A stretch of DNA of 64,000 nt. It comes from Kushneria sinocarnis (GTDB lineage: Bacteria > Pseudomonadota > Gammaproteobacteria > Pseudomonadales > Halomonadaceae). How positions within the stretch are numbered: position 1 is the stretch's first letter; each line of letters begins with the position of its first letter. Shown here piece after piece: positions 3,089-29,820 of the stretch. A program made the position numbers and the translations under genes. The notes under the pieces were generated by a model, which was not told where the DNA came from, made no database searches, and was given only the letters and a program-made list of their open reading frames with translations. Location of the stretch: the NCBI RefSeq assembly GCF_003633775.1, contig NZ_RBIN01000003.1:62001-126000 (forward strand), given 5' to 3'.

Positions 3089-4222
3089 ATGATGTCACTG
3101 TCTGCTGTCCGTCTGTTGCGTCGCCATCCCTGCAAGGCCCTGATGCTGGTGCTGGGCATGCTGCTGGCGGCACCGGCTCGTGCCGAGCGCCTCGGCGACA
3201 TCGCGAGCTTCCAGGGGGTGCGCGCCAACCCGGTGGTGGGTTACGGGCTGGTGGTCGGTCTGAACAATACCGGTGACCAGACCATGCAGACGCCGTTTAC
3301 CGGCCAGTCGGTCACCAACATGCTCTCCGAGCTTGGAGTCACGGTGGATGGCTCGACCAACATGCAGCTCAAGAACGTGGCTGCGGTGATGGTGACAGCG
3401 GATCTGCCGCCCTTTACCAGCCCCGGCCAGGAGATCGACGTGACGGTCTCCTCGATCGGCAACGCCAAGAGCCTGCGCGGCGGCACGCTGCTGATGACTC
3501 CGCTCAAGGGAGCGGACGGGGAGATCTATGCGCTGGCCCAGGGCAATGTACTGATTCCGGGTATCAGTGCGGAGGCTGCGGGCAGCAGCGTACAGGTCGG
3601 TCAGACCTCGGCAGGGCGCATTCCCGACGGGGCGATCGTGGAGCGCAAGGTGCCGGTGGATCTGGCCAAAAACGGCAGCATCGATCTCGAGCTCAAGAAT
3701 GGCGATTTCAATACGGCGCTGCGGGCCATGAATGCGATCAACCAGGTCTTCGGCAGCGGGGTGGCCACGGCGAAGAACTCACGCACCATCTCTTTGCAGG
3801 CGCCGATCGATGATGCTTCCAAGATCTCCTTTCTGGCCCGCGTACAGAACATCGATATCAATCCGGCCGCGCCGAAGCCGAAGGTGGTGATCAACTCGCG
3901 TACCGGCTCGGTGGTCATGAATACCAATGTCACGCTGGGGCGGGCTGCGGTCGCGCATGGCAACCTGTCGGTCGTGATCGACAACAATCCCATCGTGAGC
4001 CAGCCCAATGCACTGTCCGGTGGTCAGACAGCGGTCGTGCCCAATGCCGATGTCAATGTGCAGGAGGAGAGCGGGGCGCTGCAGGTCGTGCCGAACTCGA
4101 CGGATCTGGTCGATGTGGTGGATGCGCTCAATCGCATGGGCGCCACGCCGAGCGATCTGATGGCGATCCTCGAAGCGCTCAAGCGTGCCGGCGCCCTGAA
4201 TGCCGATCTGGAGGTGATCTGA
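3089..4222 (+). CDS. flgI: Flagellar P-ring protein FlgI
   Basis: A 377-residue protein with a Sec signal peptide (LMLVLGMLLAAPARA, cleavage near residue 32) followed by the FlgI start RLGDIASFQGVRANPVVGYG. FlgI is exported to the periplasm and assembles the P ring around the rod in the peptidoglycan; FlgJ helps its assembly in enteric bacteria. Length and the C-terminal motif (VVDALNRMGATPSDLMAILE) match the family over its whole length. Its TGA overlaps the flgJ ATG by one base (TGATG), consistent with translational coupling. Confidence 0.96.
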   Translation: MMSLSAVRLLRRHPCKALMLVLGMLLAAPARAERLGDIASFQGVRANPVVGYGLVVGLNNTGDQTMQTPFTGQSVTNMLSELGVTVDGSTNMQLKNVAAVMVTADLPPFTSPGQEIDVTVSSIGNAKSLRGGTLLMTPLKGADGEIYALAQGNVLIPGISAEAAGSSVQVGQTSAGRIPDGAIVERKVPVDLAKNGSIDLELKNGDFNTALRAMNAINQVFGSGVATAKNSRTISLQAPIDDASKISFLARVQNIDINPAAPKPKVVINSRTGSVVMNTNVTLGRAAVAHGNLSVVIDNNPIVSQPNALSGGQTAVVPNADVNVQEESGALQVVPNSTDLVDVVDALNRMGATPSDLMAILEALKRAGALNADLEVI

Positions 4223-5421
4223 TGGCACTCGATTCGGGCAGTCCCCGGTTCGCGCTGGATGTTCAGGGGCTTTCGAAGCTCAGGTACAACGCCCGTCAGG
4301 CGCCTGACCAGGGGCTGAAGGAGGTCTCGCAACAGTTCGAATCCGTGCTCTTGACGATGATGCTCAAGAGCATGCGGGCGGCTTCGCCGAAAAGCGAGCT
4401 GCTGGATAACTCCAGCATGGATACCTACAAGTCGATGATGGACCGGCAGTGGGCGCAGACGCTCTCCCAGCGGGGGATCGGACTGGCTGACATGCTGGTC
4501 AGCCAGCTGGGCGGGCAGAAGGCCGGCAAGCCCGATGCCGTGGAGGGCGCAGCGCCCGGTGAGCGCACCGGGCTGCCTGCCCCCGAGGCTCCCCGCACGC
4601 TCTCCCGGGCCATGTCGGTCGGCGAGGAGCAGGTGGCGGCGCTCAATGCCGGGCGGCTGGAGGCACTGCGGGCGATTGATGAGCAGAGCAATCGGCCGGT
4701 GGTGGCCGGCGCCGGCAGTGAGCCGGAGCGGGCCAGCGGTTCACTGTTTAATCAGAGCAATACCGGGGCGGGCGTGAACCGTGCCGGTGGCAGTGCCGTG
4801 GCGCTCGAGGACCTGCCGGCCCATGTCAGTGCCTTCATTGCCAAGGTGGGGGATGCGGCCCGTGATGTCAGCCGTGCCACGGGCCTTTCCAGCCGGCTGA
4901 TCATGGCTCAGGCCGCACTGGAAACCGGCTGGGGCAGAAGCGAGATCCGCGATGGCGAGAGTGCCAGCCACAACCTGTTCAACATCAAGGCGACCGGCGG
5001 CTGGCAGGGCAGGAGTACCAGCGTGGCGACCACCGAATACGAGCACGGCCGCGCGGTGAATGTTCGTGACGACTTTCGCGTCTACGACTCCTATGATCAG
5101 GCGTTTGCCGATTATGCCCGGCTGATTACCGACAACCCGCGCTATGCCGGGGTCGTCCAGGCCGGGTCGCCGGAAGAGGCGGCCCGCCAGCTTCAGCAGG
5201 GCGGTTATGCCACCGACCCCAACTATGCCAGCAAGCTGATCGCGATAATGTCGCAGATCCCGGATCAGCTGGGCGAGATGGCCGATCGCATGGGCGATCG
5301 GCTGTTCGGTGATGGCGGCCGCTCAGCCGGATGGCTGGCCGATAATGCCCGGGGTGCTACCGATACCCCGGCTGATCGGGATGAGTGGTCACTGGCGCGC
5401 CAGCCGACCCGGCTGTTCTGA
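4222..5421 (+). CDS. flgJ: Flagellar rod-assembly peptidoglycan hydrolase FlgJ
   Basis: A two-domain FlgJ of 399 residues, longer than the roughly 313 in E. coli. Residues about 30-105 are the rod-binding/cap domain (LKEVSQQFESVLLTMMLKSM). A low-complexity Ala/Glu/Arg-rich linker of roughly 90 residues follows, then a glucosaminidase-type hydrolase domain at about 200-360 with the motif AQAALETGWGRSEI, whose Glu is the expected catalytic acid. FlgJ opens the peptidoglycan so that the rod can pass. The extra length sits mainly in the linker and C-terminal tail. Translation probably couples to flgI through the one-base stop/start overlap. Confidence 0.95.
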   Translation: MALDSGSPRFALDVQGLSKLRYNARQAPDQGLKEVSQQFESVLLTMMLKSMRAASPKSELLDNSSMDTYKSMMDRQWAQTLSQRGIGLADMLVSQLGGQKAGKPDAVEGAAPGERTGLPAPEAPRTLSRAMSVGEEQVAALNAGRLEALRAIDEQSNRPVVAGAGSEPERASGSLFNQSNTGAGVNRAGGSAVALEDLPAHVSAFIAKVGDAARDVSRATGLSSRLIMAQAALETGWGRSEIRDGESASHNLFNIKATGGWQGRSTSVATTEYEHGRAVNVRDDFRVYDSYDQAFADYARLITDNPRYAGVVQAGSPEEAARQLQQGGYATDPNYASKLIAIMSQIPDQLGEMADRMGDRLFGDGGRSAGWLADNARGATDTPADRDEWSLARQPTRLF

Positions 5422-5471
5422 GTGACCGGCTGCATCCGGATGACAACAGGCGCAAAACCGGGCGTGGGTAC

Positions 5472-5498
5472 TCAATCTTCCGATCTGCCTGCCGTTAA
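5472..5498 (+). promoter_or_regulatory. Predicted sigma-28 (FliA) promoter upstream of flgK
   Basis: TCAATCTT (5472-5479), 11 bases, then GCCGTTAA (5491-5498). Against the consensus TAAAGTTT-N11-GCCGATAA this matches 5 of 8 in the -35 box and 7 of 8 in the -10 box with exact spacing. It lies 45 bases before the flgK ATG, in the 122-base gap after flgJ. Late control of flgKL by FliA is established in enteric bacteria, and fliA is encoded in this window. Confidence 0.68.
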
Positions 5499-5543
5499 AT
5501 ACACCATGACTTCAACTGCCATACGATACGTCGAGGAACCGAC

Positions 5544-7196
5544 ATGAGCAGCTCGCTTTTCGGCATCGGTCTCAGTGGCCTGAGGGCATCCCAGATTGCC
5601 CTCAACACCACCAGCAACAACATCAGCAATGTCGATACCGAAGGGTATAACCGTCAGATCACCCAGCTTTCCCAGAATACCGGCAGCTCCAGCGGGGGCG
5701 GTTTTTCGGGCAATGGCGTGACGGTGACCGGCGTCGAGCGGCAGTATCAGCAGTATCTGAACAATCAGCTCAACTCGGCGCAGTCCACTCAGAGTGCCCT
5801 GAGTACCAGCCTGAGTCAGGCCTCCCAGATCGACAGCCTGCTGGCCGACAGCGATGCCGGCATCAATACGCAGATGCAGCAGTTCTTTGCCGGCCTGCAG
5901 ACCGTGGCGGACAACCCTTCCGATACGGCGGCACGCCAGTCGCTGCTGGGCAATGCCGAGAGCATGACCGCCCAGTTCAACTCGATCGGCCAGTATTTCG
6001 ACAATCTGGACAGCAGTACCGAATCGCAGATGAGCACTGCGGTGGACGAGATCAATGGCTATGCCAGTCAGCTGGCCGAGCTCAACAACCAGATCAGTCA
6101 GACCACCGCCAAGACCGGCACGCCGCCCAACGGGCTGATGGATCAGCGTGACGCGCTGGTGACCCGGCTGAACAAGCTGACCGATATCACGGTGGTCGAT
6201 CAGCAGGGTCAGTTCAATGTCTCATTGCCCGGCGGTCAGCCGCTGGTCATCGGCGATTCGGCCAACAGCCTCTCGATGGTGTCGGCGAAGGATGACCCGG
6301 ATCGCATGACGGTCGGTTTCAATACCGCGACCGGGCAGACCCTGGAACTGAATGAACAGCAGCTCAGTGGCGGCACCCTCGGCGGTCTGATCGGCTTTCG
6401 CAATGATGTGCTCGAGCCCGCTTCCCAGCGCCTTGATCAGCTGGCACAGACCCTGAGTTCGCGAATCAATGCCCTCAACAAGCAGGGGGAAACCCTCAAC
6501 GAGGGAGAGGCCGGCGAGGCACTGTTCTCGACGGCCGAGCCGGTGGTGCGTACCAGTACCGATAATGCGGGCAGCGCCACGCTGACCGCTGAATTTGCCC
6601 GCGATGGCCAGGACAACCTCAATGCCGGGGCCATGCGTGCCAGCAATTATCAGGTCGAAGCGGATGGCAGTGGCGGTTTTACCGTCACTCGCCTGAGTGA
6701 CGGCAAGGCCGTCAGCCCCGATGCCGAGGGGGCCTATGATGGTCTTGCCATCACGCTCTCGGCCGGCGCGGCGGCGGGTGACACCTTCACCGTCAAGCCG
6801 CTGGAAGGCGCTGCCAGCAACATGCAGCTGCTGGCCTCCGATCCGGCCGCCATTGCGGCGCGCAGCCCGGGAGAAGGGGTCGGCGGCAACAGCAACGCCC
6901 TGAAGATGGCAGCGCTGCAGGATGAGAAGGTGGTCAACGGCAACGCCAGCTTCAACAGTGCCTATGCCCAGATTGTCAGCAGTGTCGGCAACCAGGTGGC
7001 AACGCTTTCCAGCAAGAGCGATGCCCAGAATCAGGTGGTGCAGGAGCTGCAGGGCGCCCAGCAGTCGGTATCCGGCGTCAATCTCGACGAGGAGGCGGCC
7101 AACCTGGTGCGCTATCAGCAGCTCTATACCGCCAATGCACAGGTCATCAAGACCGCTTCCGGTCTGTTCGATACCCTGCTGGGTATCATGGCATAA
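5544..7196 (+). CDS. flgK: Flagellar hook-filament junction protein FlgK (HAP1)
   Basis: A 550-residue protein close to E. coli FlgK (547). The N-terminus carries the axial-protein signature (LRASQIALNTTSNNISNV) and the C-terminus the D0 helix (LVRYQQLYTANAQVIKTAS). FlgK is exported through the flagellar channel and forms the first junction ring between hook and filament; the next gene makes the second ring, FlgL. AGGAACCGAC precedes the ATG. The central region (about 340-430) is the variable, surface-exposed part. The flgL ATG follows 12 bases after the stop. Confidence 0.96.
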   Translation: MSSSLFGIGLSGLRASQIALNTTSNNISNVDTEGYNRQITQLSQNTGSSSGGGFSGNGVTVTGVERQYQQYLNNQLNSAQSTQSALSTSLSQASQIDSLLADSDAGINTQMQQFFAGLQTVADNPSDTAARQSLLGNAESMTAQFNSIGQYFDNLDSSTESQMSTAVDEINGYASQLAELNNQISQTTAKTGTPPNGLMDQRDALVTRLNKLTDITVVDQQGQFNVSLPGGQPLVIGDSANSLSMVSAKDDPDRMTVGFNTATGQTLELNEQQLSGGTLGGLIGFRNDVLEPASQRLDQLAQTLSSRINALNKQGETLNEGEAGEALFSTAEPVVRTSTDNAGSATLTAEFARDGQDNLNAGAMRASNYQVEADGSGGFTVTRLSDGKAVSPDAEGAYDGLAITLSAGAAAGDTFTVKPLEGAASNMQLLASDPAAIAARSPGEGVGGNSNALKMAALQDEKVVNGNASFNSAYAQIVSSVGNQVATLSSKSDAQNQVVQELQGAQQSVSGVNLDEEAANLVRYQQLYTANAQVIKTASGLFDTLLGIMA

Positions 7197-7208
7197 GGTC
7201 CGATAATC

Positions 7209-8153
7209 ATGCGTATCAGTACTTCCATGATGTTCGAGCTGAGCAGAAACGCGATGCAGGATCGCCAGAGCGACCTCTCCGAAATCGGGCTTCAGCTCTC
7301 TACCGGCAAACGAATTGCTACCCCGTCCAGCGACCCGCGGGCGGCGGGCCAGGTGCTGCTGACCCAGCAGGCGAATGCCCAGAACAGTCAGTTCGAAAAC
7401 TCGCGCATTACCGCCCAGCAGCAGCTGGCCACCCAGGACAGCGTGCTGGACAGCGTGACCAACCTGATTACCCGGGCCAAGTCGCTGATCGTGCAGGCGG
7501 GCAACGGCACGATGTCCGATGTTGACCGTCAGTCGAACGCCACCGAGCTGGAAGGTCTCTATCAGGAAGCGCTCGGTCTGGCCAACAGCCAGGATGGCAA
7601 CGGCAATTATGTCTTTGCCGGCTCGCAGACCGACCAGCCTGCCTTTGTCGAAGAGGCCGGCGGTGTGACGTACAACGGGGACGATGTGGTGCAGTCCATG
7701 CGGGTTGATGCTTCGCGCAACATGAAGATCAACCGGATCGGCAGCGAGGTCTTCGACATCGGGGCGAGTGGGGATGATCCGGCCAGCAGCCTGTTCAACA
7801 GCCTGAAGTCGGCCATCGATGTCCTGAATCAGCCGCTGGGCGATGGCGCCGATGGTACGGTCACTTCCGAGCAGTACCGCGCCACCATCGACCGCACCAA
7901 CCGTCAGCTCGATCAGTCACTGGACAACGTCCTGACCGTGCGCTCCAGCATCGGCTCCAATCTCAACGAGATCGATGCGCTCGACGAGATCGGCAACACC
8001 CGCTCGCTCAATTACGAGACCCAGATCTCCTCGCTGCAGGATCTGGACTATTCCGAAGCCATTTCACGCTACTCGGTCAGCCAGGTGGGCCTGCAGGCCT
8101 CGCAGCAGCTGTTTACCCGGGTACAGGAGCTCTCGCTGTTCAAGATGCTCTGA
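7209..8153 (+). CDS. flgL: Flagellar hook-filament junction protein FlgL (HAP3)
   Basis: A 314-residue member of the flagellin/FlgL superfamily. It has flagellin-like N- and C-terminal helices (LQLSTGKRIATPSSDPRAAG near the N-terminus, YSVSQVGLQASQQLFTRVQE at the C-terminus) but begins MRISTSMMFE as FlgL proteins do, and it directly follows flgK, so it is not a third flagellin. FlgL forms the ring on which the first filament subunits are laid. It is probably co-transcribed with flgK from the sigma-28 promoter, ending at the hairpin just downstream. Confidence 0.96.
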   Translation: MRISTSMMFELSRNAMQDRQSDLSEIGLQLSTGKRIATPSSDPRAAGQVLLTQQANAQNSQFENSRITAQQQLATQDSVLDSVTNLITRAKSLIVQAGNGTMSDVDRQSNATELEGLYQEALGLANSQDGNGNYVFAGSQTDQPAFVEEAGGVTYNGDDVVQSMRVDASRNMKINRIGSEVFDIGASGDDPASSLFNSLKSAIDVLNQPLGDGADGTVTSEQYRATIDRTNRQLDQSLDNVLTVRSSIGSNLNEIDALDEIGNTRSLNYETQISSLQDLDYSEAISRYSVSQVGLQASQQLFTRVQELSLFKML

Positions 8154-8171
8154 CAGCCGACCCATCCCGTG

Positions 8172-8202
8172 ACGCCACTTCTCATGAAGTGGCGTTTTGC
8201 TT
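8172..8202 (+). terminator. Intrinsic terminator after flgL
   Basis: A perfect 10-bp stem, ACGCCACTTC (8172-8181) and GAAGTGGCGT (8186-8195), around the loop TCAT, followed by a T-rich tail (TTTGCTTT). It starts 18 bases after the flgL stop. The opposite strand has no T-run, so it appears to serve only the rightward transcript. Confidence 0.88.
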
Positions 8203-8256
8203 TCCGGGGGGCAGCGGATCAAGGCGCCGGCATGCGAGCCCGAGCCGGGGGAGCCA

Positions 8257-9051
8257 CTACGAGGAGCTGTCGGCCAGCGTCATTACCACCTCGACCATCT
8301 GCTGCAGGCCCTGCTCGAACATGCGCTGAAAGACTGTCCCCAGTTCCGGGGTCATGAAGGTCAGCAGCACCACGCCGGTCAGCAGCGTAATGGGGAAGCC
8401 GACCGAGAATACGGAAAACTGGGGGGAGGCCCGATTGAGGATGCCCATCGACAGGTTGATGATCAGCAGGGCGGTCAGCAGCGGAATGGCCAGCAGCATG
8501 CCGGCACTGAAGATGATGCTGCCGTAATGCGCCACATCCCGGAAGCCTTCGGTATTCAGGGTGCCGGTCCCCACGGGCAGGCGCTGGAAGGTTTCGATCA
8601 GCAGCTGGAGCATGATCAGATGCCCGTCGAAGGCCAGAAACATCAGCACCGCAAACAGGTTGAGCAGTCGCGCCAGCACCATGGTATTGCCCTGGGATTC
8701 GGCCGAATAGAAGGAGGCGAAGGAGAGCCCCATCTGCAGACCGATGAAGTCGCCGGCCGCCATGATGGCGGCAAATACCACGCGCATGACCAGCCCCAGG
8801 GCAAGACCGATCAGCAGCTGTTGTGCGATCAGCCAGAAGCCGGCATAGGAAATGGGTGCGATGTCCGGCATCGGTGGCAGGGTAGGGGCAATCAGTACGG
8901 TCAGGGTGGCGGCCATGCCGATCTTGGCCAGCCGGGGAATGGCGGTTTCGCCGAAAATGGGGGCGGCAGCCACGAAGGCCAGCAGCCGGAAGAAGGGCCA
9001 CAGGAAGAGCGTGACCCAGTGCATCAGCTGCGCTTCGGTAACCTCGAGCAT
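8257..9051 (-). CDS. fliR: Flagellar type III export gate protein FliR
   Basis: A 264-residue, very hydrophobic protein, near E. coli's 261, with about six membrane segments. The N-terminus (FFRLLAFVAAAPIFGE) and the central LLIGLALGLVMRVVFAAI are typical FliR stretches. FliR joins FliP and FliQ in the export gate inside the MS ring, through which rod, hook and filament subunits leave the cytoplasm. It is the last gene of the leftward fliLMNOPQR set, and its start lies 19 bases after the fliQ stop with only a weak ribosome site, suggesting dependence on upstream translation. Confidence 0.96.
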   Translation of the reverse strand: MLEVTEAQLMHWVTLFLWPFFRLLAFVAAAPIFGETAIPRLAKIGMAATLTVLIAPTLPPMPDIAPISYAGFWLIAQQLLIGLALGLVMRVVFAAIMAAGDFIGLQMGLSFASFYSAESQGNTMVLARLLNLFAVLMFLAFDGHLIMLQLLIETFQRLPVGTGTLNTEGFRDVAHYGSIIFSAGMLLAIPLLTALLIINLSMGILNRASPQFSVFSVGFPITLLTGVVLLTFMTPELGTVFQRMFEQGLQQMVEVVMTLADSSS

Positions 9052-20063: not shown

Positions 20064-20387
20064 ATGGCAGTGACCGGTGGCGGCCTGGAGGCCCTTGTTC
20101 AACAGATGCAGCAGGTGGCGCAGCAGGCCGGTGGTCAGCAGGCCGCGCCTGTGCAGTCCGAGGGTGCGAGTTTTGCCGGTGAGCTCAAGAGTGCCATCGA
20201 CCGGGTGGATGGGCTGAAGAAGAATGCCGCTGAAAAGAGCATGGCCTTTACCCGCGGCGATCCCGGCGTGGAGCTCAACGACGTCATGGTGGACATGCAG
20301 AAGGCCAGCGTTTCCTTTCAGATGGGGCTTCAGGTCCGTAACCGGCTGATGACCGCCTACAAGGACATCATGAACATGCAGGTGTGA
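20064..20387 (+). CDS. fliE: Flagellar hook-basal body complex protein FliE
   Basis: A 107-residue protein (104 in E. coli) with a Gln-rich start and the family core GASFAGELKSAIDRVDGLKK, then the C-terminal helix VSFQMGLQVRNRLMTAYKDI characteristic of FliE. FliE joins the FliF ring to the rod and is the first protein exported. Divergence from the fliF operon is the arrangement seen in enteric bacteria. Only repeat sequence follows it on this strand. Confidence 0.97.
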   Translation: MAVTGGGLEALVQQMQQVAQQAGGQQAAPVQSEGASFAGELKSAIDRVDGLKKNAAEKSMAFTRGDPGVELNDVMVDMQKASVSFQMGLQVRNRLMTAYKDIMNMQV

Positions 20388-20435
20388 GGGCAGGGCGTGC
20401 GAAGCAGGGCCTGCATGTTGCGATAAAAAGGGCAA

Positions 20436-20869
20436 TCGCGACTGAAGTCGCTCCTACACTCTGGGTCTGCGGGGCGATTACGAACGAAGGCGGAAAGATC
20501 ACTGACCATGGAGTTTTGCAGGAGCGACTTCAGTCGCGATGAAATGCCGGCTGGCAACGCATCTCCTGCGGACACGACTTCGGCCGCGGCTGGCTTGCCT
20601 TCCGTGTTCCGGCTGACCATGGGTTTTGTAGGAGCGAATTCAGTCGCGATGAAGCGCCCGCTGGCAGCGCATCTCCTGCGGACACGACTTCAACCGCGGC
20701 TGGCTTGCCTTCCGTGTTCCGGCTGGCCACGGCTTTTGTAGGAGCGACTTCAGTCGCGATGAAGCGCCGGTTGGCAGCGTATCTCCTGCGGACACGACTT
20801 CAACCGCGGCTGGCTTGCCTTCCGTATTCCGGCTGACCCCGAGTTTCGTAGGAGCGACTTCAGTCGCGA
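20436..20869 (+). repeat. REP-like array A: 110-bp tandem units with palindromic cores
   Basis: Five copies of a 22-base element with the palindromic core GCGACTTCAGTCGC and a leading GTAGGA or GCAGGA. One copy is inverted at 20436-20457; direct copies lie at 20518-20539, 20628-20649 (one substitution), 20738-20759 and 20848-20869. The direct copies are exactly 110 bases apart, and the sequence between them is also repeated, so the 110-base unit has been duplicated in tandem. Each unit also holds a decayed second copy (near 20568, 20678 and 20788). Leader plus palindrome resembles Pseudomonas REP elements. Short open frames here are not convincing genes. Confidence 0.88.
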
Positions 20870-20909
20870 AGGTGCTGATACTCATGGCCGGCACCCGTCT
20901 GCCAGACAC

Positions 20910-20940
20910 AAAAAAACAGGGCCCGCCGTAGCGGACCCTG
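20910..20940 (-). terminator. Intrinsic terminator of the cold-shock gene
   Basis: Read leftward, the RNA forms a 10-bp stem (CAGGGUCCGC with GCGGGCCCUG, one G-U pair) closed by a UACG tetraloop and followed by seven U. It begins about 40 bases after the cold-shock gene stop. Confidence 0.88.
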
Positions 20941-20979
20941 CATGCCTGCCCAAATATGCCGGACAATCAGTCCAGGCAG

Positions 20980-22901: not shown

Positions 22902-23080
22902 GCAGGAAAGAGTTCAGTCGCGATGCTGCAGGTACCTTTTAACCCGGCCTCCGAGCCCTGCCTTTTTACCACGGTCTCTTGCAGGAGCGACTTCAGTCGC
23001 GATGCTGTAGAGGCCTTTTATCCCGCTCTCCGAGCCTGCCTCTTTACCACGGTCTCTTGTAGGAGCGACTTCAGTCGCGA
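22902..23080 (+). repeat. REP-like array B: three units with a 78-79 bp period
   Basis: Three direct copies of the same 22-base palindromic element as in array A lie at 22902-22923 (decayed), 22981-23002 and 23059-23080, spaced 79 and 78 bases apart. The spacer sequence is also repeated (CCACGGTCTCTTG precedes the second and third copies), so this unit duplicated in tandem separately from array A. It fills the space between the ends of psiE and the large flagellin gene. Confidence 0.86.
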
Positions 23081-23157
23081 TTTTCACTTGTTGGCGCGAT
23101 CCTGAAAATCTGAGTTCCGAACGGACCATGTACCATGTATATGCAACGCTACGGAAT

Positions 23158-25059
23158 TTATTGCAGCAGCGACAACACATTCTGATTGCTCTGGTTGGCC
23201 TGGGCCAGCACTGCCGTACCAGCCTGCTGCAGAATCTGTTCACGGGTCATGTTGGAGACTTCAACGGCATAATCGGCATCCATGATGCGTGAGCGCGCCT
23301 GGGAGAGCAGGGTAGTATCCCTTGCCTGCTGATCCAGAATTGAACTCATCCGGTTCTGAGTGGCGCCGAGCTGGCTACGTTTGTCGTCGACTCGTGCAAT
23401 GGCGCGATCAAGCGCTGCAAGCGGGTGATCAGGCGTTTTCAGACGAATTTCTCCCCCCACTTCCCTCAGGCCAACGGTGCTGTGCTCTGCAGGCACATCC
23501 GTATTGGCGTTCTGCGCAAATTGATAATAGAGGATGACATCGCCGGTACCGTTACGGGTCTTGAGCAGCGTCCCCATGTTCTCGCTTTCAACCAGCGTTG
23601 CAGTCTTGTAGCTGGGAGTATTGGCATCTCCTCCCGCGACGCGCAGATAATACTGCCCCTCTTCATCCGTTCTCAGGGCATCCGCGAAATAATTGCCGTC
23701 GCGGTCGGTGTAGTCGACCGTGACATTGGCTGGGTCAAGCGTGATGGTTGAAACCCCTTCCACTGTTTCCGATTCGGTAAATACCGGCGCATCCAGCGCC
23801 GTTGCGGTCGTGGCTCGAGCGGTTACCTGGGCAGACCGGGCGGAAGGAGCGGAAACGGCGTAGTAGTTACCGTCGTCTTCAAGATAATAATGGCCGCTAT
23901 CATCTACTGTAAGCACTGCATCGGCATCGAGTGGGTTACCCTCTGCATCCAGATATCGAAGCTCTGTATCGGCATCCGCGAGCGACTGACCATCGAGTTC
24001 CGTCACCGGCTGCAAGCCGGTTAGCATAGCAGGATCCATGGTGGATGAGCTGTCTGCCCGAGCTGTCACAATGGGGTTGTCGGTGGTAACCGCTGCGCTG
24101 TAAAACTGGGCAGTACTTCCTGTGCCCTGTTGAATGAAGTACTGGTTGCCGGTGGCTACCAGTCGAGCATTTTCGATGCTGTTACCGCTTTGATCTTCAA
24201 ACACAACGGTGGCGCTATCAAGCTGTACGCTGTTGACGTCTTCCACGGGGGCGTACAGTTGCTCGCCTACATCGACTGCAATGCTGTTCCGGCCACTGGC
24301 AGTCTCATGGCTGGGCTGCGCCGCAAGCGTGGAAACGTAATAAACGGTCTCGCCGTTTTCCTGAGAGCGGGTATAGCGAGCGCCATAGCCCGGGGTGCTG
24401 CTTTCCATCAGCACCGGATTACTGGTACTGCTGCCGTTGAAGCTCAGATTGGTGGTCGGATCCACGACCGGAATCTGATGTGCTGCACCTGCCACCATGT
24501 TCAGAGGAGTGACATGACCGCTGACACCGGCAATGGTGAAATCCTTCAACCCCAGCTCCTCGACGCTGAAACCGGGCGGATTGAGATCGACGCCGAGCGT
24601 CTCCCCATCATTGGCCCCGATCTGCACATCGATTGTGCCGGCGGTTCCATCCAATAGATTGAGCCCATTGAACCGGGATTGTGATGTCAGGCGGTCGATC
24701 TCCTTGAGATTGAGATTGATCTCCTGCTGGATTGTATCCTGATCTGTCAGGTTCAGCGCACCGTTGATGCCCTGTACTGTCAGTTCGCGTATTCGCTGTA
24801 GCCGCTGATTGATCTGCGAGAGGGCGCCTTCAGCCGTGCCGGAAACGGAAATGCCATCATTGGTATTGGCTGCCGCCTGTTGCTGACCACGGATCTGACT
24901 GGTCATCCGATTGCTGATGGCCGATCCGGCAGCATCATCCCTGGCCGAGTTGATTCGCAGCCCGGTGGAAAGCCGTTCGATCGAGCGCTTCAGCGAGCGC
25001 TGGGTCTTGTCCAGCTGCTGCTGGGTGTTCAGTGAGCTGAGAAAGGATAGGGTGGACAT
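23158..25059 (-). CDS. fliC: Flagellin, large form (FliC1, 633 aa)
   Basis: Residues 1-150 and about 548-633 are the conserved flagellin D0/D1 helices (IERLSTGLRINSARDDAAG near the start; RIMDADYAVEVSNMTREQIL near the end). They flank a roughly 400-residue variable, surface-exposed region, larger than the roughly 500-residue total of many flagellins. The variable region holds three imperfect tandem modules of about 70-80 residues (about 277-348, 356-424 and 437-505), each with a D-x-x-GN turn, a QYF/HYY/QYY-type strand and an ATA or TAR segment. A sigma-28 promoter lies just upstream. A second, much shorter flagellin lies 4 kb away. Confidence 0.95.
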   Translation of the reverse strand: MSTLSFLSSLNTQQQLDKTQRSLKRSIERLSTGLRINSARDDAAGSAISNRMTSQIRGQQQAAANTNDGISVSGTAEGALSQINQRLQRIRELTVQGINGALNLTDQDTIQQEINLNLKEIDRLTSQSRFNGLNLLDGTAGTIDVQIGANDGETLGVDLNPPGFSVEELGLKDFTIAGVSGHVTPLNMVAGAAHQIPVVDPTTNLSFNGSSTSNPVLMESSTPGYGARYTRSQENGETVYYVSTLAAQPSHETASGRNSIAVDVGEQLYAPVEDVNSVQLDSATVVFEDQSGNSIENARLVATGNQYFIQQGTGSTAQFYSAAVTTDNPIVTARADSSSTMDPAMLTGLQPVTELDGQSLADADTELRYLDAEGNPLDADAVLTVDDSGHYYLEDDGNYYAVSAPSARSAQVTARATTATALDAPVFTESETVEGVSTITLDPANVTVDYTDRDGNYFADALRTDEEGQYYLRVAGGDANTPSYKTATLVESENMGTLLKTRNGTGDVILYYQFAQNANTDVPAEHSTVGLREVGGEIRLKTPDHPLAALDRAIARVDDKRSQLGATQNRMSSILDQQARDTTLLSQARSRIMDADYAVEVSNMTREQILQQAGTAVLAQANQSNQNVLSLLQ

Positions 25060-25097: not shown

Positions 25098-25124
25098 TAC
25101 TCGGCTCGCACTGACAAAACTTTA
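25098..25124 (-). promoter_or_regulatory. Predicted sigma-28 promoter of the large flagellin gene
   Basis: Read leftward: TAAAGTTT (25117-25124, perfect -35), 11 bases, then GCCGAGTA (25098-25105, 6 of 8 to GCCGATAA). It lies about 40 bases before the flagellin ATG at 25059. Spacing is exactly consensus. Confidence 0.87.
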
Positions 25125-25219
25125 GAGGAAAATGGAAGAAAGAGGCGAAAAATGAAAGGAATAGGAAAGGTCATTTTTTATCTTTTTTAGAAAGTTGCGG
25201 CAGAGCAGCGGAGAGTATG

Positions 25220-25237
25220 CTGACAGGTACTTGTCAG
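25220..25237. promoter_or_regulatory. Near-perfect 18-bp palindrome before the acyltransferase gene
   Basis: CTGACAGGTACTTGTCAG is symmetric at 16 of 18 positions around GTAC. It ends five bases before the GGAG ribosome site of the gene at 25253. It could be an operator or, in RNA, a hairpin limiting ribosome access. The binding factor is unknown; it is not a good LexA or LuxR-type box. Confidence 0.45.
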
Positions 25238-25252
25238 TGATTGGAGAATGCT

Positions 25253-25828
25253 ATGATTAAAATTTTGGATGAAAAACCTTTGGGTTCGGCAGAATCCAAG
25301 AAGATTGATGGTATTAGCGATCAGGTGAAAGATGAAAAGGAAAGTGATTTTTTATCTCTTTTGAGAACTGCTGAAAAAAAAGATTTGGATGTGCTTTCTA
25401 GGCTCTTAATGCCGTATATAGCAGAATACGAAATGAGGCAACCTAGAATATGGGGAGATAAAAATCGCGTACATATTGAAAGAGCTACTATTTCTATTAA
25501 CGATTTAGTTTTAAACACGCGCTCTGGGCATATAACTATCGAAGCGGACTGCTTTTTTGGTCATCGATGCATGCTGCTAACGGGTACTCATGACTATACG
25601 AGAGTTGGCATGGAAAGGTTGAAAGCAGTCCCTGATGAAGGTCGCGATATTTGTGTGAAAGAAGGAGTCTGGATGGGCTCTGGAGTTACTGTGCTGGGAC
25701 CCTCTGTAATAGGAAAAAATGCAGTAATCGCCGCCGGCAGCTTGGTTGTGGGAGATGTACCTGACAATACTGTTGTTGCAGGGAGGCCAGCTAAACCTGT
25801 TAAAAATATAAATGGTGATTTCTTATGA
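25253..25828 (+). CDS. Hexapeptide-repeat (left-handed beta-helix) O-acyltransferase
   Basis: A 191-residue protein. I chose the ATG at 25253, with GGAG six bases upstream, over an in-frame TTG at 25241 that overlaps that ribosome site. Residues 1-60 form a charged helical segment. Hexapeptide turns then run from about 75 to 185 (VWMGSGVTVLGPSVIGKNAV, IAAGSLVVGDVP, VVAGRPAKPV), typical of trimeric acetyl/acyltransferases. His113 in TGTHDY is the likely catalytic base. The acceptor is unknown; these enzymes usually modify sugars. The gene is AT-rich, unlike its surroundings, and overlaps the next gene by four bases. Flagellin-glycan acylation is inferred from location. Confidence 0.85.
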   Translation: MIKILDEKPLGSAESKKIDGISDQVKDEKESDFLSLLRTAEKKDLDVLSRLLMPYIAEYEMRQPRIWGDKNRVHIERATISINDLVLNTRSGHITIEADCFFGHRCMLLTGTHDYTRVGMERLKAVPDEGRDICVKEGVWMGSGVTVLGPSVIGKNAVIAAGSLVVGDVPDNTVVAGRPAKPVKNINGDFL

Positions 25829-26637
25829 AAAACATGATTTTTACTATCACACATGGAAGAACGGGGACAACTTTTTTAACAGAGTTGTTTGGCCTTTTTC
25901 ATGACACGTTGGCACTACATGAACCAGAGCCAAACTATGCTGACATCTTTCCTTTGGTTAAAGAAGATCCGCGCCATGCGTTGGGCTTCCTTAAAAGGAG
26001 AATTGAAAATATTAATAAGATCAAGCAAAAAAATTATATAGAAACTAGTAATGTTTTTGGTAAAAGCTTTTTTATACCCTTGTTGAGACTTGGCGTGCAG
26101 CCAAAAATTGTCCTGCTCAATCGAAACTTTAGAGAAGTTGCTAAAAGTCTTTATGTTCGTGGGAGTTACCCCATGCGCACAGAAAGAGGCCGTCAATACT
26201 CTTCTGACCCATCGTTCCCCGGTAATTTACCGATATACTTGCCAGAGTCTTTGAGCAACTATCAGCTTTGCTATTGGGGGGTTTTAGATTCATTTTTCCG
26301 ACAAATTCAGGCAGCAAATATATATGAATCTATGGGTTTGTCATCAAAAATTTTTAATGTTCAAGCTGATGATCTTCATGATTTTAAGTGCTTTGAAAGT
26401 ATGGGGGAGAGATTTGGTCTTTATTTTTCTGATCGTGACGAGGCATTAAAGCAGCATGGCGTGATTAAGAAGAAAAGGTTTAACCCTAACCTTGGGGTAA
26501 AAAAGACCGGTGACATAAATTTTGATAATGAAGAATCCTTGGTTTTAGACCGGATTGCTTATTTTGACCCTATCTTTGTAGAAAAAGTTTTAAGCGAAAA
26601 AATGACTGAGAATGGAGTCAAAGAAAATTTCAAATAA
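25825..26637 (+). CDS. Sulfotransferase-like protein
   Basis: A 270-residue protein beginning with the PAPS-binding loop of sulfotransferases (THGRTGTTFLTELF, residues 9-22, the 5'-phosphosulfate motif). HEPEPN at 32-37 and a 3'-phosphate-binding-like segment LLNRNFREVAKSLYVRGSY (97-115, Arg100 and Ser108 candidates) follow. It has no signal peptide or membrane helix, so it should be cytoplasmic, where both PAPS and unexported flagellin are found. Its ATG overlaps the acyltransferase stop (ATGA). AT-rich: I count 22 G+C of 60 in bases 26041-26100. The family is clear at motif level; acceptor and activity are unproven, and a non-sulfating P-loop relative cannot be excluded. Confidence 0.72.
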   Translation: MKNMIFTITHGRTGTTFLTELFGLFHDTLALHEPEPNYADIFPLVKEDPRHALGFLKRRIENINKIKQKNYIETSNVFGKSFFIPLLRLGVQPKIVLLNRNFREVAKSLYVRGSYPMRTERGRQYSSDPSFPGNLPIYLPESLSNYQLCYWGVLDSFFRQIQAANIYESMGLSSKIFNVQADDLHDFKCFESMGERFGLYFSDRDEALKQHGVIKKKRFNPNLGVKKTGDINFDNEESLVLDRIAYFDPIFVEKVLSEKMTENGVKENFK

Positions 26638-26642
26638 AAGAT

Positions 26643-26675
26643 GGGCAGGATGGCAGCATCCTGCCCGCCTTTTTT
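26643..26675 (+). terminator. Intrinsic terminator after the sulfotransferase gene
   Basis: A perfect 10-bp stem GGGCAGGATG (26643-26652) and CATCCTGCCC (26657-26666) with loop GCAG, then GCC and a run of T. The tail reaches the stop codon of the convergent glycosyltransferase gene at 26674, so the terminator cleanly closes the two-gene unit. Confidence 0.9.
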
Positions 26676-28758
26676 ATTTAATATTTTTCAGTATATGATC
26701 GATTTCTAAGCTGATATTTGATTTTTTAGATCTTTCTGTGGAGTCGTAATTTTTCTGCAGCCCATAAAATTTTTCACCTTTTTCTTCAAAGACTCCTCCT
26801 TCCTCAGTTATCTTCAGGGCTGTAGCTTTATTTCCTTCACAATATCGCTGCCAGATAGCACGCATGGCCGTTGAAAAATGCTTGCCGAATTTCTCTGCGT
26901 CGCAGACCGGCGATTGTATCAGGAACTGACGCAGGCAAGCACGGATCACACTCAGGTTGGGGATGTCGGAGGCCAGTTCAACAACGCGCTGACGGTACTC
27001 TTCCCAGCTACTGGTAACCAGCTCAGGCATGCCCGCGTTGATAAGATGTGTTGCCGAGTGGCGGCCGGCAAAGGTTGGGCCTGGCAGGGTAACGACTGGC
27101 ACCCCCATCATGAAGGCTTCGCAGGTCGTGAGCCCACCTGAATAAGGCCAAGTGTCTAGGGCAATATCAACTCGGTTATAAGAGTCAAGCAATTCACGGT
27201 GTTTGGAAGGGCCTTCTAGTATGAGTCGGTCGGCTGAAATACCGTATTCATACATAACATCGCGAATAAAGTCACAATACTCACTGCTGCTGTATTGTAT
27301 GCTTTTTAACAAAAGCCGACTCTCCGGAAGATCTTGCATTATCTTAGCCCATTCACCTAATAGAACACGATTTATCTTGGCAGGATTGTTAAAGCAACCC
27401 AAAGTAATAAAGCTATTATAAAGTGCTGGCAACGCCTTGATAGAAGGTGCGTAATTAGGTGGGGTATAGCAAATGTAGTCGTTGGGCAAGCGAATCAATT
27501 TTTCCGTATAAAAGTTATCGCTACTTTCCGGGGTTTCGAATCGATCGCTAAGAAGATAATCGAAAGCTGGCAAACCCATAGTGTTAATAAGCCCACCAAC
27601 CCACTTGACGATAATAGGGGCTGGTTTGTAAGACATGGTTTTCAGGCGGCTACCGTCACCATAGCCAGACAGATCAAAAAGAATATCAATTTCATCTTTC
27701 TGAATTTTTTCAGCCAGTTCTTCCTGATTGAGATGGCGTACTAGATGCCAAGATTTAGTACATTTCTTGAGCCTTTCCGTAATATGATCATTGGTATTGT
27801 TAGTGCTGTAGGCATGGAATTCCATGCCACCGAGATGTTGTTCAAGAGCGGCACATATCATCTGACCTACCGGATGTAACCTGAGCCCCGAAGACACTAG
27901 GCCAATTCGGATTATTTTGTCGGAAGAATTATTTGCTGGTATGTGTTGAAAGGGTGTTCGGTTAAGTGAGAAGCGACTTTCCCATTGCCGAATAGCGTGA
28001 TAAATTTCATTTCCTGAACATTCAGGGTTATAGTGCTTGCAAATTAGATAGTTAGAAAATGCAGCCTGATAGTCAGGATCTATTTCACATGCGCGATGGT
28101 AGTATTTTTCTGCAAATGAAAATTGCCCGAGGTCTTTGTAAAGATTGGCAATGTCATTCAGGAAGTGAATGTTTTCAGGGATTTCTGAAATCAGCATTTC
28201 GTACGTTTGTTTAGCTTCATTATAACGCCCCAGCTTTATAAATAAATGACCTTTTGTCAATAAGCAGGAAGTGCGTTCGTAGCCTAGCTCTTCAGCTTTG
28301 CAAGCGTGATCGAATGCGTTTTGATAATTGCCGCTTTCAGTTAAAACCTCTGCGAGTGTGTGATGGCCTTGAGAAAAGCTTGGTTCTAGTGTTAAAGCTT
28401 TGTTTGCATAAGCCATTGCTTGAGTGGGATCCCCTAGATCATACCAAGTGCGTGCCATCAGATGCTGTGCCTGTGCATCGTTAGTATTGATTTGCAATGA
28501 TTGGCTTAGTGCATCCTTGGCTTTCATAATTTGGCCATTTTTGTGCAAACAACTACCCAGTACTTTCCAGCCGAAAGCATCTTTTGGATAGCGCTGGGTC
28601 AGCTTTTCTGCATAGTGCTCTGCTTCTATAAAACTTCTGGCATTGTAGAGTTCCAAAAATTTTTTCTGTTCCTGCGGTGGAGCAATAGCTGCACTCTTGG
28701 CTGAGGAGCGATGCGGCTTGGCGCGGTCTGAGGATTTCTTTTGCTTGCGAGCGCTCAT
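26674..28758 (-). CDS. TPR-containing GT41 (O-GlcNAc-transferase/SPINDLY-like) glycosyltransferase
   Basis: A 694-residue protein if started at the ATG at 28758 (AGGTG upstream); a longer frame to 28929 runs back through the neighbouring terminator and is rejected. Residues 1-25 are basic. About six TPR repeats span 30-240 (for example FAEKYYHRACEIDPDYQAAF). The catalytic half (about 280-640) has the GT41 marks: SSGLRLHPVGQM (His295), LGCFNNPAKIN (Lys461, nucleotide site) and LDTWPYSGGLTTCEAFMMG then GVPVVTLPGPTFAGRHSATH. It is cytoplasmic, with no signal. GT41 enzymes add sugars to Ser/Thr, and TPRs choose the protein. Lying between two flagellin genes, it is a strong candidate flagellin O-glycosyltransferase, similar in layout to Caulobacter FlmG. 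It is less GC-rich than its neighbours. Confidence 0.85.
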   Translation of the reverse strand: MSARKQKKSSDRAKPHRSSAKSAAIAPPQEQKKFLELYNARSFIEAEHYAEKLTQRYPKDAFGWKVLGSCLHKNGQIMKAKDALSQSLQINTNDAQAQHLMARTWYDLGDPTQAMAYANKALTLEPSFSQGHHTLAEVLTESGNYQNAFDHACKAEELGYERTSCLLTKGHLFIKLGRYNEAKQTYEMLISEIPENIHFLNDIANLYKDLGQFSFAEKYYHRACEIDPDYQAAFSNYLICKHYNPECSGNEIYHAIRQWESRFSLNRTPFQHIPANNSSDKIIRIGLVSSGLRLHPVGQMICAALEQHLGGMEFHAYSTNNTNDHITERLKKCTKSWHLVRHLNQEELAEKIQKDEIDILFDLSGYGDGSRLKTMSYKPAPIIVKWVGGLINTMGLPAFDYLLSDRFETPESSDNFYTEKLIRLPNDYICYTPPNYAPSIKALPALYNSFITLGCFNNPAKINRVLLGEWAKIMQDLPESRLLLKSIQYSSSEYCDFIRDVMYEYGISADRLILEGPSKHRELLDSYNRVDIALDTWPYSGGLTTCEAFMMGVPVVTLPGPTFAGRHSATHLINAGMPELVTSSWEEYRQRVVELASDIPNLSVIRACLRQFLIQSPVCDAEKFGKHFSTAMRAIWQRYCEGNKATALKITEEGGVFEEKGEKFYGLQKNYDSTERSKKSNISLEIDHILKNIK

Positions 28759-28884
28759 GGATACACCTGCTGATTCTGAAGATGGGGCCTGAAGCCATTC
28801 TAGAGGCACGCAATAGAGCGAAGGACTTGAATAGAAGTCGTTAGCTGGTCCAATCCGGCATTTTGAGACACACCATGCAGGCAA

Positions 28885-28911
28885 TAAAAAAGGCCGGCAT
28901 AAGCCGGCCTT
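28885..28911 (-). terminator. Intrinsic terminator of the small flagellin gene
   Basis: Read leftward, AAGGCCGGC and GCCGGCCTT form a perfect 9-bp stem around TTAT, followed by a run of T. It starts 28 bases after the flagellin stop and insulates that strongly transcribed gene from the glycosyltransferase gene on the same strand. Confidence 0.9.
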
Positions 28912-28938
28912 GAGTAGCTTCAGGTGCAACTGAAGTGC

Positions 28939-29820
28939 TTACTGGAGCAGCGAGAGCACGCTCTGGGTCGTCTGGTTGGCCTGAGCCAGTACCGAGGTGC
29001 CGGCCTGCTGCAGGATCTGCGCCTTGGACATGTTCGAGACTTCGGTAGCGTAATCCGCGTCCTCGATTCGCGAGCGGGCAGAGCTCAGGTTGGTCGAGGT
29101 GGTGTTGATGTTCTCGATGGCCGATTCGAAGCGGTTCTGCACGGCACCCAGATCGCTGCGATTGTCGTCGACCGATTTCAGCTTATCGTCCAGATCAGCC
29201 AGAGCGGTGGAGCTCATGACGTCAAAACCCTGGGCACCGACGGTACGATCACCACCAGTAAAGTTGACGCCGGTACCGCCACCCAGAGCGCCGGTCGCGC
29301 TAGCAGAATAAGCATTCCAGCCCGAAGCTGAACCGATATTGATGGAGATATTTTCACCATCGTTGGCGCCAACCTGAATGCTGAATTCAGTACCGGTGCT
29401 CTGTGCGAACAGATCAGTACCATTGAAAGAGGTACTTTCAGTAACGCGATTGATCTCTTCCAGACGCTGATTGACTTCCTTCTGGATGGAGTCGATGTCG
29501 CTGGCGGAGTTGGTGCCGTTCTGGGCCTGCACGGTCAGCTCACGGATGCGCTGCAGGTTGTCGTTGACCTGATCCAGCGCGCCTTCGGCGGTCTGGGCCA
29601 GCGAGATGCCGTCGTTGGCGTTGCGGCTGGCCTGGTTGAGACCGGTGATCTGCGAGCTCATGCGGTTGGCGATGGCCTGACCGGCGGCATCGTCCTTGGC
29701 GCTGTTGATGCGCGAACCGGAGGAGAGGCGCTCGATTGCGGTGTTGAGCGAGCTCTGGGACTTGTTCAGGTTCTGCTGAGCCATCAGCGACAGCGAGTTG
29801 GTATTGACGACCATTGCCAT
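28939..29820 (-). CDS. fliC: Flagellin, small form (FliC2, 293 aa)
   Basis: A compact flagellin: D0/D1 helices ([20 protein letters not shown] and the C-terminal [20 protein letters not shown]) flank only about 60 residues of Ser/Gly/Ala/Thr-rich central sequence (about 150-215). It therefore largely lacks the outer domains of the 633-residue flagellin. The end SVLSLLQ is shared in form with the large flagellin (NVLSLLQ), the site bound by the export chaperone FliS in other systems. AGGGA lies nine bases before the ATG; a second ATG two codons later is possible. A strong sigma-28 promoter and its own terminator flank it. Confidence 0.96.

Follow-up and report, generated by a model that had tools for sequence, protein, structure and literature searches.

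Flagellin glycosylation islands of enterobacteria have been described by comparative genomics (De Maayer and Cowan 2016, PMC4875605). According to the available part of that paper, they are horizontally acquired, highly variable loci of deviating guanine-plus-cytosine (G+C) content, which encode GT41 glycosyltransferases with a SPINDLY-type domain (COG3914), most of them carrying methyltransferase domains, together with accessory O-acetyltransferases (WbbJ). FlmG of Caulobacter crescentus is, in the available text of PMC7591256, a soluble flagellin O-glycosyltransferase built from tetratricopeptide repeats (TPRs) and a GT-B part, and its TPR part binds flagellin. Sulfated N-glycans are reported on glycoproteins of the archaeon Halobacterium salinarum (PMC11980604) and on archaellins (PMC6591318). 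Here, we report on a 64,000-nucleotide stretch (the window) of the 3.5-Mb genome of Kushneria sinocarnis, family Halomonadaceae (contig NZ_RBIN01000003.1, positions 62,001 to 126,000), in which genes for an acyltransferase (ACT), a sulfotransferase (ST) and a TPR-containing GT41 glycosyltransferase (hereafter GT41) lie between a large and a small flagellin gene (FLA2 and FLA1). The cassette is real, flagellin-linked and mobile. We read it, with a probability of roughly 0.7, as a flagellin-decoration cassette in which GT41 would supply a sugar, ACT an acyl group and ST a sulfate to flagellin; the likely product, judged from the encoded enzymes, would be an acylated, sulfated O-glycan on flagellin. 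The initial annotation of this DNA had read the cassette in the same way, and its reading is largely supported.

The cassette occupies positions 25253-28758 and differs in composition from its surroundings: the 3.9 kb enclosed by the two flagellin genes has 42% G+C against 60.5% for the whole window, which bears out the lower G+C noted initially, and the underlying base counts (25, 22 and 40 of 60 in three segments) were exact on recount. By gene, G+C is 40.8% (ACT), 36.9% (ST) and 43.9% (GT41), and 56.5% and 58.7% in the two flagellins. The window's minimum over 3.7-kb stretches starts at 25005 (41.9%), and among stretches starting before 21001 or after 30500 the minimum is 56.5%. With its glycosyltransferase, its modifying enzymes, its flagellin neighbours and its deviating G+C, the locus has the features of a flagellin glycosylation island. 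The three genes do lie between the flagellins as initially annotated, but they are not one colinear set: ACT and ST, which overlap by four bases, are on the forward strand and converge on GT41, which shares the reverse strand with both flagellins.

The association with flagellin is conserved among relatives (locus and genome numbers, L and G, are our own handles). Of 201 family genomes, 64 have a GT41 match at E 1e-30 or better, and GT41s of this kind are present in three of ten genomes of the window's genus. All of the first 30 GT41 loci (30/30) have flagellin upstream on the same strand. In a family set of 60 loci (L041-L100, from 60 of the 64 GT41-positive genomes; G035, G088, G095 and G123 were left out, G035 being represented as L033 among the first 30), the flagellin gene ends less than 530 bp upstream of GT41 on the same strand in 56. 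The four exceptions are L093, with one gene between flagellin and GT41; L094, where GT41 is in two pieces and a flagellin frame still adjoins; and L095 and L096, which encode other GT41s of 30% and 26% identity. At the level of the class, at least two of 29 distant GT41 loci have a flagellin match, a lower bound as only the window's flagellins served as queries on flanks of up to 1.5 kb. FLA1 is our proposed main acceptor because flagellin precedes GT41 in relatives.

ST follows the same arrangement. It was found in one of ten genomes of the genus (the window's own only), in 12 of 275 family genomes (window included), in 8 of 369 genomes of the class at E 1e-5 and in 3 of 398 of the phylum at E 1e-10 (window counted in both). 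All 12 family ST loci have flagellin, GT41, ACT and ST in a row, the ACT-ST pair being inverted in the window only. When one genome per species was scanned, 13 named ST loci besides the window were recovered: nine in Halomonadaceae (the same records as nine of the twelve family ST loci), two in Microbulbifer, one in Ectothiorhodospira mobilis and one in an alphaproteobacterial metagenome-assembled genome (L112). All but L112, i.e., 12 of 13, keep the order flagellin-GT41-ACT-ST (for L103, the flagellin was read from the same contig as L213). By the terms of the initial annotation, a position of the three genes mainly away from flagellin in relatives would have counted against its reading; the opposite is found. 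Farther out, the distant ST relatives L153-L156 gave no flagellin match to the queries used within the stretches examined; GT41-like frames do lie near pieces of ST in L155, while L154 encodes a GT25 domain and L156 TPRs. L156 also encodes (6853-8850, minus strand) a 666-aa TPR protein with a weak ST-family match; weak matches of this kind recur in three genomes of a single genus.

The "sulfotransferase-like" label of the initial annotation holds, although by structure rather than by family models. ST matches no family in Pfam or NCBIfam at E 0.01, and phmmer found no useful hit among PDB sequences (best E 0.56). Its AlphaFold model (mean predicted local distance difference test, pLDDT, 89.7) is closest among solved folds to the CurM sulfotransferase (Z 14.2, root-mean-square deviation 4.0, 210 aligned residues), tyrosylprotein sulfotransferase (TPST, Z 14.1) and heparan 3-O-sulfotransferase (3-OST, Z 11.8). 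With the fold confirmed on this model, ST is placed by fold and motifs as a sulfotransferase-fold protein outside the Pfam and NCBIfam sulfotransferase models. The sequence HGRTGTT, R100 and S108 (eight apart) and E33 are invariant in the ST alignment (9/9 rows, i.e., the window and eight family homologues of 50-57% identity). We take HGRTGTT to be the 5'-phosphosulfate-binding P-loop and R100/S108 the Arg/Ser pair of the 3'-phosphate-binding site. The genome's adenosine 5'-phosphosulfate (APS) kinase scores over its cut-off, therefore 3'-phosphoadenosine 5'-phosphosulfate (PAPS) should be available.

The model's Z scores cannot separate a protein from a sugar acceptor for ST, and ST might instead sulfate a flagellin tyrosine directly, with no glycan involved. 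The two top Foldseek rows are indeed tyrosylprotein sulfotransferases, and E33 follows R12 by 21 residues, the spacing of the TPST catalytic pair. However, CurM ties with TPST and 3-OST comes next, so that the fold does not decide the matter, and ST adjoins ACT in all 16 distinct close-ST loci and stands beside GT41 in all of them but L112; we regard direct tyrosine sulfation as highly improbable.

ACT is a hexapeptide-repeat protein (31.3 bits against a cut-off of 27 for PF00132) with 50-78% identity to its relatives. A locus was called ACT-linked at a match of at least 249 bits; the weak hexapeptide matches in L058, L083 and L093 (39-42 bits) were dropped as belonging to other enzymes. An N-terminal segment resembling ESDFLSLLRT is common to all 16 aligned GT41-linked ACTs; the unlinked ACT of L112 does not have it.

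On the GT41 side, a short C-terminal peptide goes with ACT. ST-linked GT41s end, after a variable linker, in the consensus TI[SA]xE[IL]D[KR]L[LM]; column entropy is mostly about 2.4-3.5 bits in the linker and 0.4-1.0 at the seven key peptide positions (14 rows, without L211). Ten of the 60 family GT41s have the strict pattern, namely nine with ACT-ST plus L060, in which an ACT is present, no ST was detected and the peptide is internal, before a fused FkbM domain. The eleventh case is L081, where an integrase-type transposase frame interrupts GT41. Peptide and FkbM domain are both in the second GT41 part here, with ACT next to it, and the frame behind this ACT encodes a solute-binding protein, not ST. 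Altogether, the peptide is present in 11/11 ACT-linked and 0/49 other family loci (Fisher 3e-12, a figure that takes no account of kinship or of the nine defining loci). Please note that the nine ST-linked family loci served to define the strict pattern and are therefore no test of it; L060 and L081 are independent. As these two carry peptide and ACT with no detected ST, we rejected the peptide as a marker of ST and consider it a marker of ACT.

Outside the defining set, the peptide matches in L103, L105, L106, L107 and L211, and L113 fails the strict pattern by a V for I. The GT41 body of L106 (Ectothiorhodospira) is only 33% identical. The other selected frames of at least 90 aa in the 60 family loci do not contain the strict pattern. 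A looser pattern followed by a stop within seven residues gave no match in six frames of 51 loci (L050-L100, 779 kb), a scan whose design passes over the internal copies in L060 and L081. The phylum-level ST loci L214 and L215, scanned for the peptide only, gave no match. A model of one GT41 extension shows a disordered linker that carries the peptide (residues 318-327) as a short helix of low confidence. The simplest reading of these sequences is that the peptide is a docking helix which would recruit ACT. It might also be conserved for a DNA or RNA reason, such as translational coupling or a recombination joint, as its coding sequence adjoins the ACT start in colinear loci. Peptide codons, however, vary at synonymous sites, the peptide is kept in the inverted window locus, and its internal copies in L060 and L081 lie some 1 kb away from ACT and are followed by the FkbM methyltransferase domain. 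We consider such a nucleic-acid-level cause rather unlikely.

The window GT41 (PF13844, 134.3 bits, cut-off 25) has N-terminal TPRs and a C-terminal glycosyltransferase domain. Its best solved sequence relatives are SPINDLY (4.3e-82) and Thermobaculum TtOGT (1.5e-77), and the equivalents of SPINDLY H495, N662, K665 and E752 are identical in all rows of a 62-row GT41 alignment (L095 counted apart; L094 and L096 left out). According to the accessible part of PMC10027727, three residues set the donor, the O-GlcNAc transferase (OGT) signature being L866/R904/C917, and a Y at the third site is said to clash with the N-acetyl group. The window has K485/S526/Y539 at these sites, which differs from the OGT signature; relative to the SPINDLY O-fucosyltransferase (K689/A731/Y744), K and Y are kept and A is replaced by S. 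Across the 62 rows, the first site is K or R in 61, the second a small residue in 62 and never R, and the third Y in 62, while L095, the 30% relative, has L/R/Y. UDP-N-acetylglucosamine (UDP-GlcNAc) thus looks unlikely as the donor. GDP-fucose is unsupported, as no Gmd scores over its cut-off in the genome (best 66.6 of 415 bits), import or other routes apart, and a nonulosonic acid is likewise unsupported for this genome, which has no match to NeuB (PF03102). These residues and searches lead us to expect a hexose, and not GlcNAc, fucose or a nonulosonic acid; the initial annotation had proposed a hexose or an N-acetylhexosamine, and it is the latter half that looks doubtful. FlmG, as described, resembles the window GT41 in its TPR-plus-glycosyltransferase layout; in the available text (PMC7591256), FlmG uses pseudaminic acid, for which the NeuB result gives no counterpart here. 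A flagellin-binding role of the window's TPRs is proposed by analogy with FlmG as described there.

In relatives, GT41 carries other domains behind the same body. Residues beyond the matched GT41 region number from 148 to 1124 in 58 of the 60 loci, none in the window and two in L096. Of 56 such extensions scanned, 12 have Glycos_transf_2, 10 Sulfotransfer_3 and 7 FkbM methyltransferase domains. Confirmed singly, a sulfotransferase domain is fused to GT41 in 14 of 57 other GT41s (L050, L061, L070, L055, L057, L066, L071, L072, L077, L089, L094, L100, L078 and L090; this count takes all sulfotransferase matches of the 56-extension tally, 13/56, plus L094), and sulfation therefore recurs; L050 belongs to the window's own genus. 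Fused sulfotransferase and separate ST never occur together in one of these loci. As far as domain matches tell, a flagellin-linked GT41 is thus coupled to sulfation in one of two ways, through a fused domain or through a separate ST. The extension of about 300 aa found in ST-linked GT41s gave no Pfam family for L042 and L043; its model (pLDDT 78.5) retrieves methyltransferase folds (best E 4.8e-5, template modeling score only about 0.3), so that it may be called methyltransferase-like, short of an assignment. A methyltransferase-like domain of about 290 aa follows GT41 in many relatives (e.g., L042:8710-9654) and is absent from the window GT41. Two further loci are worth recording: L093 encodes, between flagellin and GT41 (3711-6656, plus strand), a protein of 982 aa that combines TPRs, Sulfotransfer_3 and a methyltransferase domain, and the same-genus L051 (G005; 4490-7225, minus strand) has a GT41 extension with a polymerase-beta-type nucleotidyltransferase match and three FLA1 copies of equal score upstream.

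Horizontal movement of the cassette, already suggested by the initial annotation, is supported beyond base composition. A GT41 tree of 63 sequences, built by a quick search and showing long end branches for L095, L106 and L113, requires 12 changes of the label "ST-linked", 10 of them forced by well-supported branches, and the mean for shuffled labels is 12.8, i.e., ST linkage is no more clustered than shuffled labels. The GT41 bodies that bear the C-terminal peptide are likewise dispersed across the tree. The window GT41 groups, at support 100, with four others, namely those of its genus mates L050 and L051, to which it is 66% identical, and of L052 and L053, and the cargo differs within these five rows. 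In a sister species (L193), the two flagellin genes stand about 0.2 kb apart with no insert. Another sister species, G002, has at the window's GT41 place, between FLA1 and the next flagellin, a 1177-aa protein (L194:8916-12449, minus strand) with weak TPR and ATP-grasp-like matches, perhaps a flagellin-directed ligase adding amino acids. Two more sister species (G006 and G003, loci L197 and L198, respectively) have, near FLA2, short stretches of about 87-91% identity to FLA1, one of these at a contig end, as though flagellin copies were lost.

As to enzyme activities, donor, acceptor sites and docking, we infer the following scheme. In the cytoplasm, the soluble TPR-GT41 would use its TPRs to bind flagellin that is unfolded or monomeric, and would glycosylate Ser/Thr with a hexose-type sugar other than GlcNAc, the donor being probably a GDP-sugar or another small-sugar donor. 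ACT, recruited by the C-terminal peptide of GT41, would acylate the sugar, most likely by O-acetylation, and ST would sulfate the sugar from PAPS. GT41 would be the constant platform and the cargo interchangeable: fused glycosyltransferase, methyltransferase or sulfotransferase domains, or the peptide with separate ACT and ST. In its full form, i.e., flagellin-bound TPR-GT41 as an assembly platform whose modifiers are either fused or attached in trans by a transferable 10-residue peptide binding the N-terminal helix of ACT, with ST completing an acylated, sulfated O-glycan on flagellin, and with relatives altering filament chemistry by swapping peptide-plus-partners for fused domains, this scheme is tentative, and we would put it at somewhat under even odds.

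Several observations weigh against the cassette reading or its mechanism. SPINDLY's fucose contact T747 is G, and T748 is L, in all 62 rows. Docking is drawn from co-occurrence, and since the peptide codons adjoin ACT in colinear loci, the peptide could hitchhike there. L112 has ACT-ST with no GT41 or flagellin in the stretch examined; its neighbours are ATP-grasp and glutamine amidotransferase genes and, further off, an O-antigen-ligase-like gene. This locus is what one would expect if ACT and ST acted on another surface glycan (lipopolysaccharide or capsule) and stood beside flagellin as passengers of a recombination hotspot, which low G+C and scattered distribution would also fit. Such a passenger role is nevertheless unlikely in our view, as ACT-ST stays behind flagellin-GT41 in 12/13 named and 12/12 family loci, the GT41 peptide tracks ACT, and the same kind of GT41 carries fused sulfotransferase domains in relatives.

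The remaining points against decoration concern the window copy itself. Its ACT-ST pair is inverted relative to the other eleven family ST loci and, because of this, is not co-transcribed with GT41; its GT41 has no extension of about 300 aa, which the other eleven have (in L211, GT41 is in two frames). The cassette could be a decaying copy, and at the extreme an inactive, degenerate remnant left by internal GT41 loss and inversion, the same two differences having appeared against the eight other ST-linked family loci first compared. Yet all three frames are open, the ST P-loop and Arg/Ser pair and the other conserved residues are kept, the C-terminal peptide is retained though ACT no longer follows, and the Ectothiorhodospira GT41 (662 aa) also has no extension; a dead remnant therefore seems improbable to us. 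Invertible DNA could explain the ACT-ST orientation, but a repeat search gave no convincing flanking inverted pair, and the 17-nucleotide inverted pair I4 falls in terminator-like DNA.

Positions of the cassette and its surroundings are collected in Table 1. The GT41 open frame at its longest reaches a TTG at 28929. The sigma-28-like promoter of FLA2 is the window's sole match at up to three mismatches (0.11 expected). Elsewhere in the window, the frames 20357-20966 and 22914-23243 share strings, among them SRNTEGKPAA-EVVSAGD and ATEVAP, which suggests dispersed intergenic DNA repeats.

Table 1. Features of the flagellin-flanked cassette (window coordinates)
Feature	Position	Strand	Basis or remark
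Large flagellin FLA2, 633 aa, possible acceptor	23158-25059	-	Flagellin_N and Flagellin_C matches
Sigma-28-like promoter of FLA2	25098-25124	-	2 mismatches to the consensus TAAAGTTT-N11-GCCGATAA
Hexapeptide-repeat acyltransferase ACT, 191 aa	25253-25828	+	PF00132, 1.4e-7
Sulfotransferase ST, 270 aa	25825-26637	+	Fold and motifs
Bidirectional terminator-like hairpin between convergent ST and GT41 genes	26642-26667		
TPR-GT41 glycosyltransferase, 694 aa	26674-28758	-	PF13844, 5.2e-39, and TPR; ATG start
GT41 C-terminal peptide NISLEIDHIL, residues 681-690	26689-26718	-	Proposed ACT docking peptide
GT41 catalytic region, about residues 265-650	26809-27966	-	
GT41 TPR region, about residues 34-242	28033-28659	-	Proposed flagellin-binding part
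Terminator-like hairpin between FLA1 and GT41	28890-28911	-	
Small flagellin FLA1, 293 aa, proposed main acceptor	28939-29820	-	Flagellin_N and Flagellin_C matches

The initial annotation had taken an acylated and sulfated flagellin glycan to be undescribed. This stands for the sulfate; islands with GT41, methyltransferases and acetyltransferases are published (PMC4875605, in its available part), and the string "sulf" does not occur in the main text of that paper as far as it was available. Among the papers listed in a literature search over titles and the beginnings of abstracts, with subscription papers and preprints outside its scope, there was archaeal work or work on unrelated subjects and none on bacterial flagellin sulfation; for GT41 or SPINDLY with flagellin, the same partly available paper was the sole relevant one, and for Halomonas flagellin glycosylation only Pseudomonas papers came up. 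What appears new here, as read from the sequences, is a flagellin glycosylation island with ST and a candidate docking peptide. With the peptide-ACT rule, the recruitment of accessory enzymes to an OGT-like enzyme can be tested concretely and cheaply, and the system may be a naturally modular one for glycan engineering. Exchange of the cargo while the platform stays constant would account for rapid change of the filament surface, plausibly against flagella-binding phages or in adaptation to salt.

Compared with the enterobacterial islands, in the part of PMC4875605 available, the locus differs in that ST is a standing partner, sulfotransferases are among the fused cargo, the peptide tracks ACT, and the bacterial family is another one. 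With Halobacterium salinarum, as described in the accessible text of the sources cited above, it would share a sulfated glycan on the swimming filament of a halophile; that system is archaeal and N-linked, whereas the one proposed here is bacterial, cytoplasmic and probably O-linked. If our reading is true, halophilic bacteria have a counterpart of the haloarchaeal sulfated filament glycans, reached by an independent route to similar surface chemistry.

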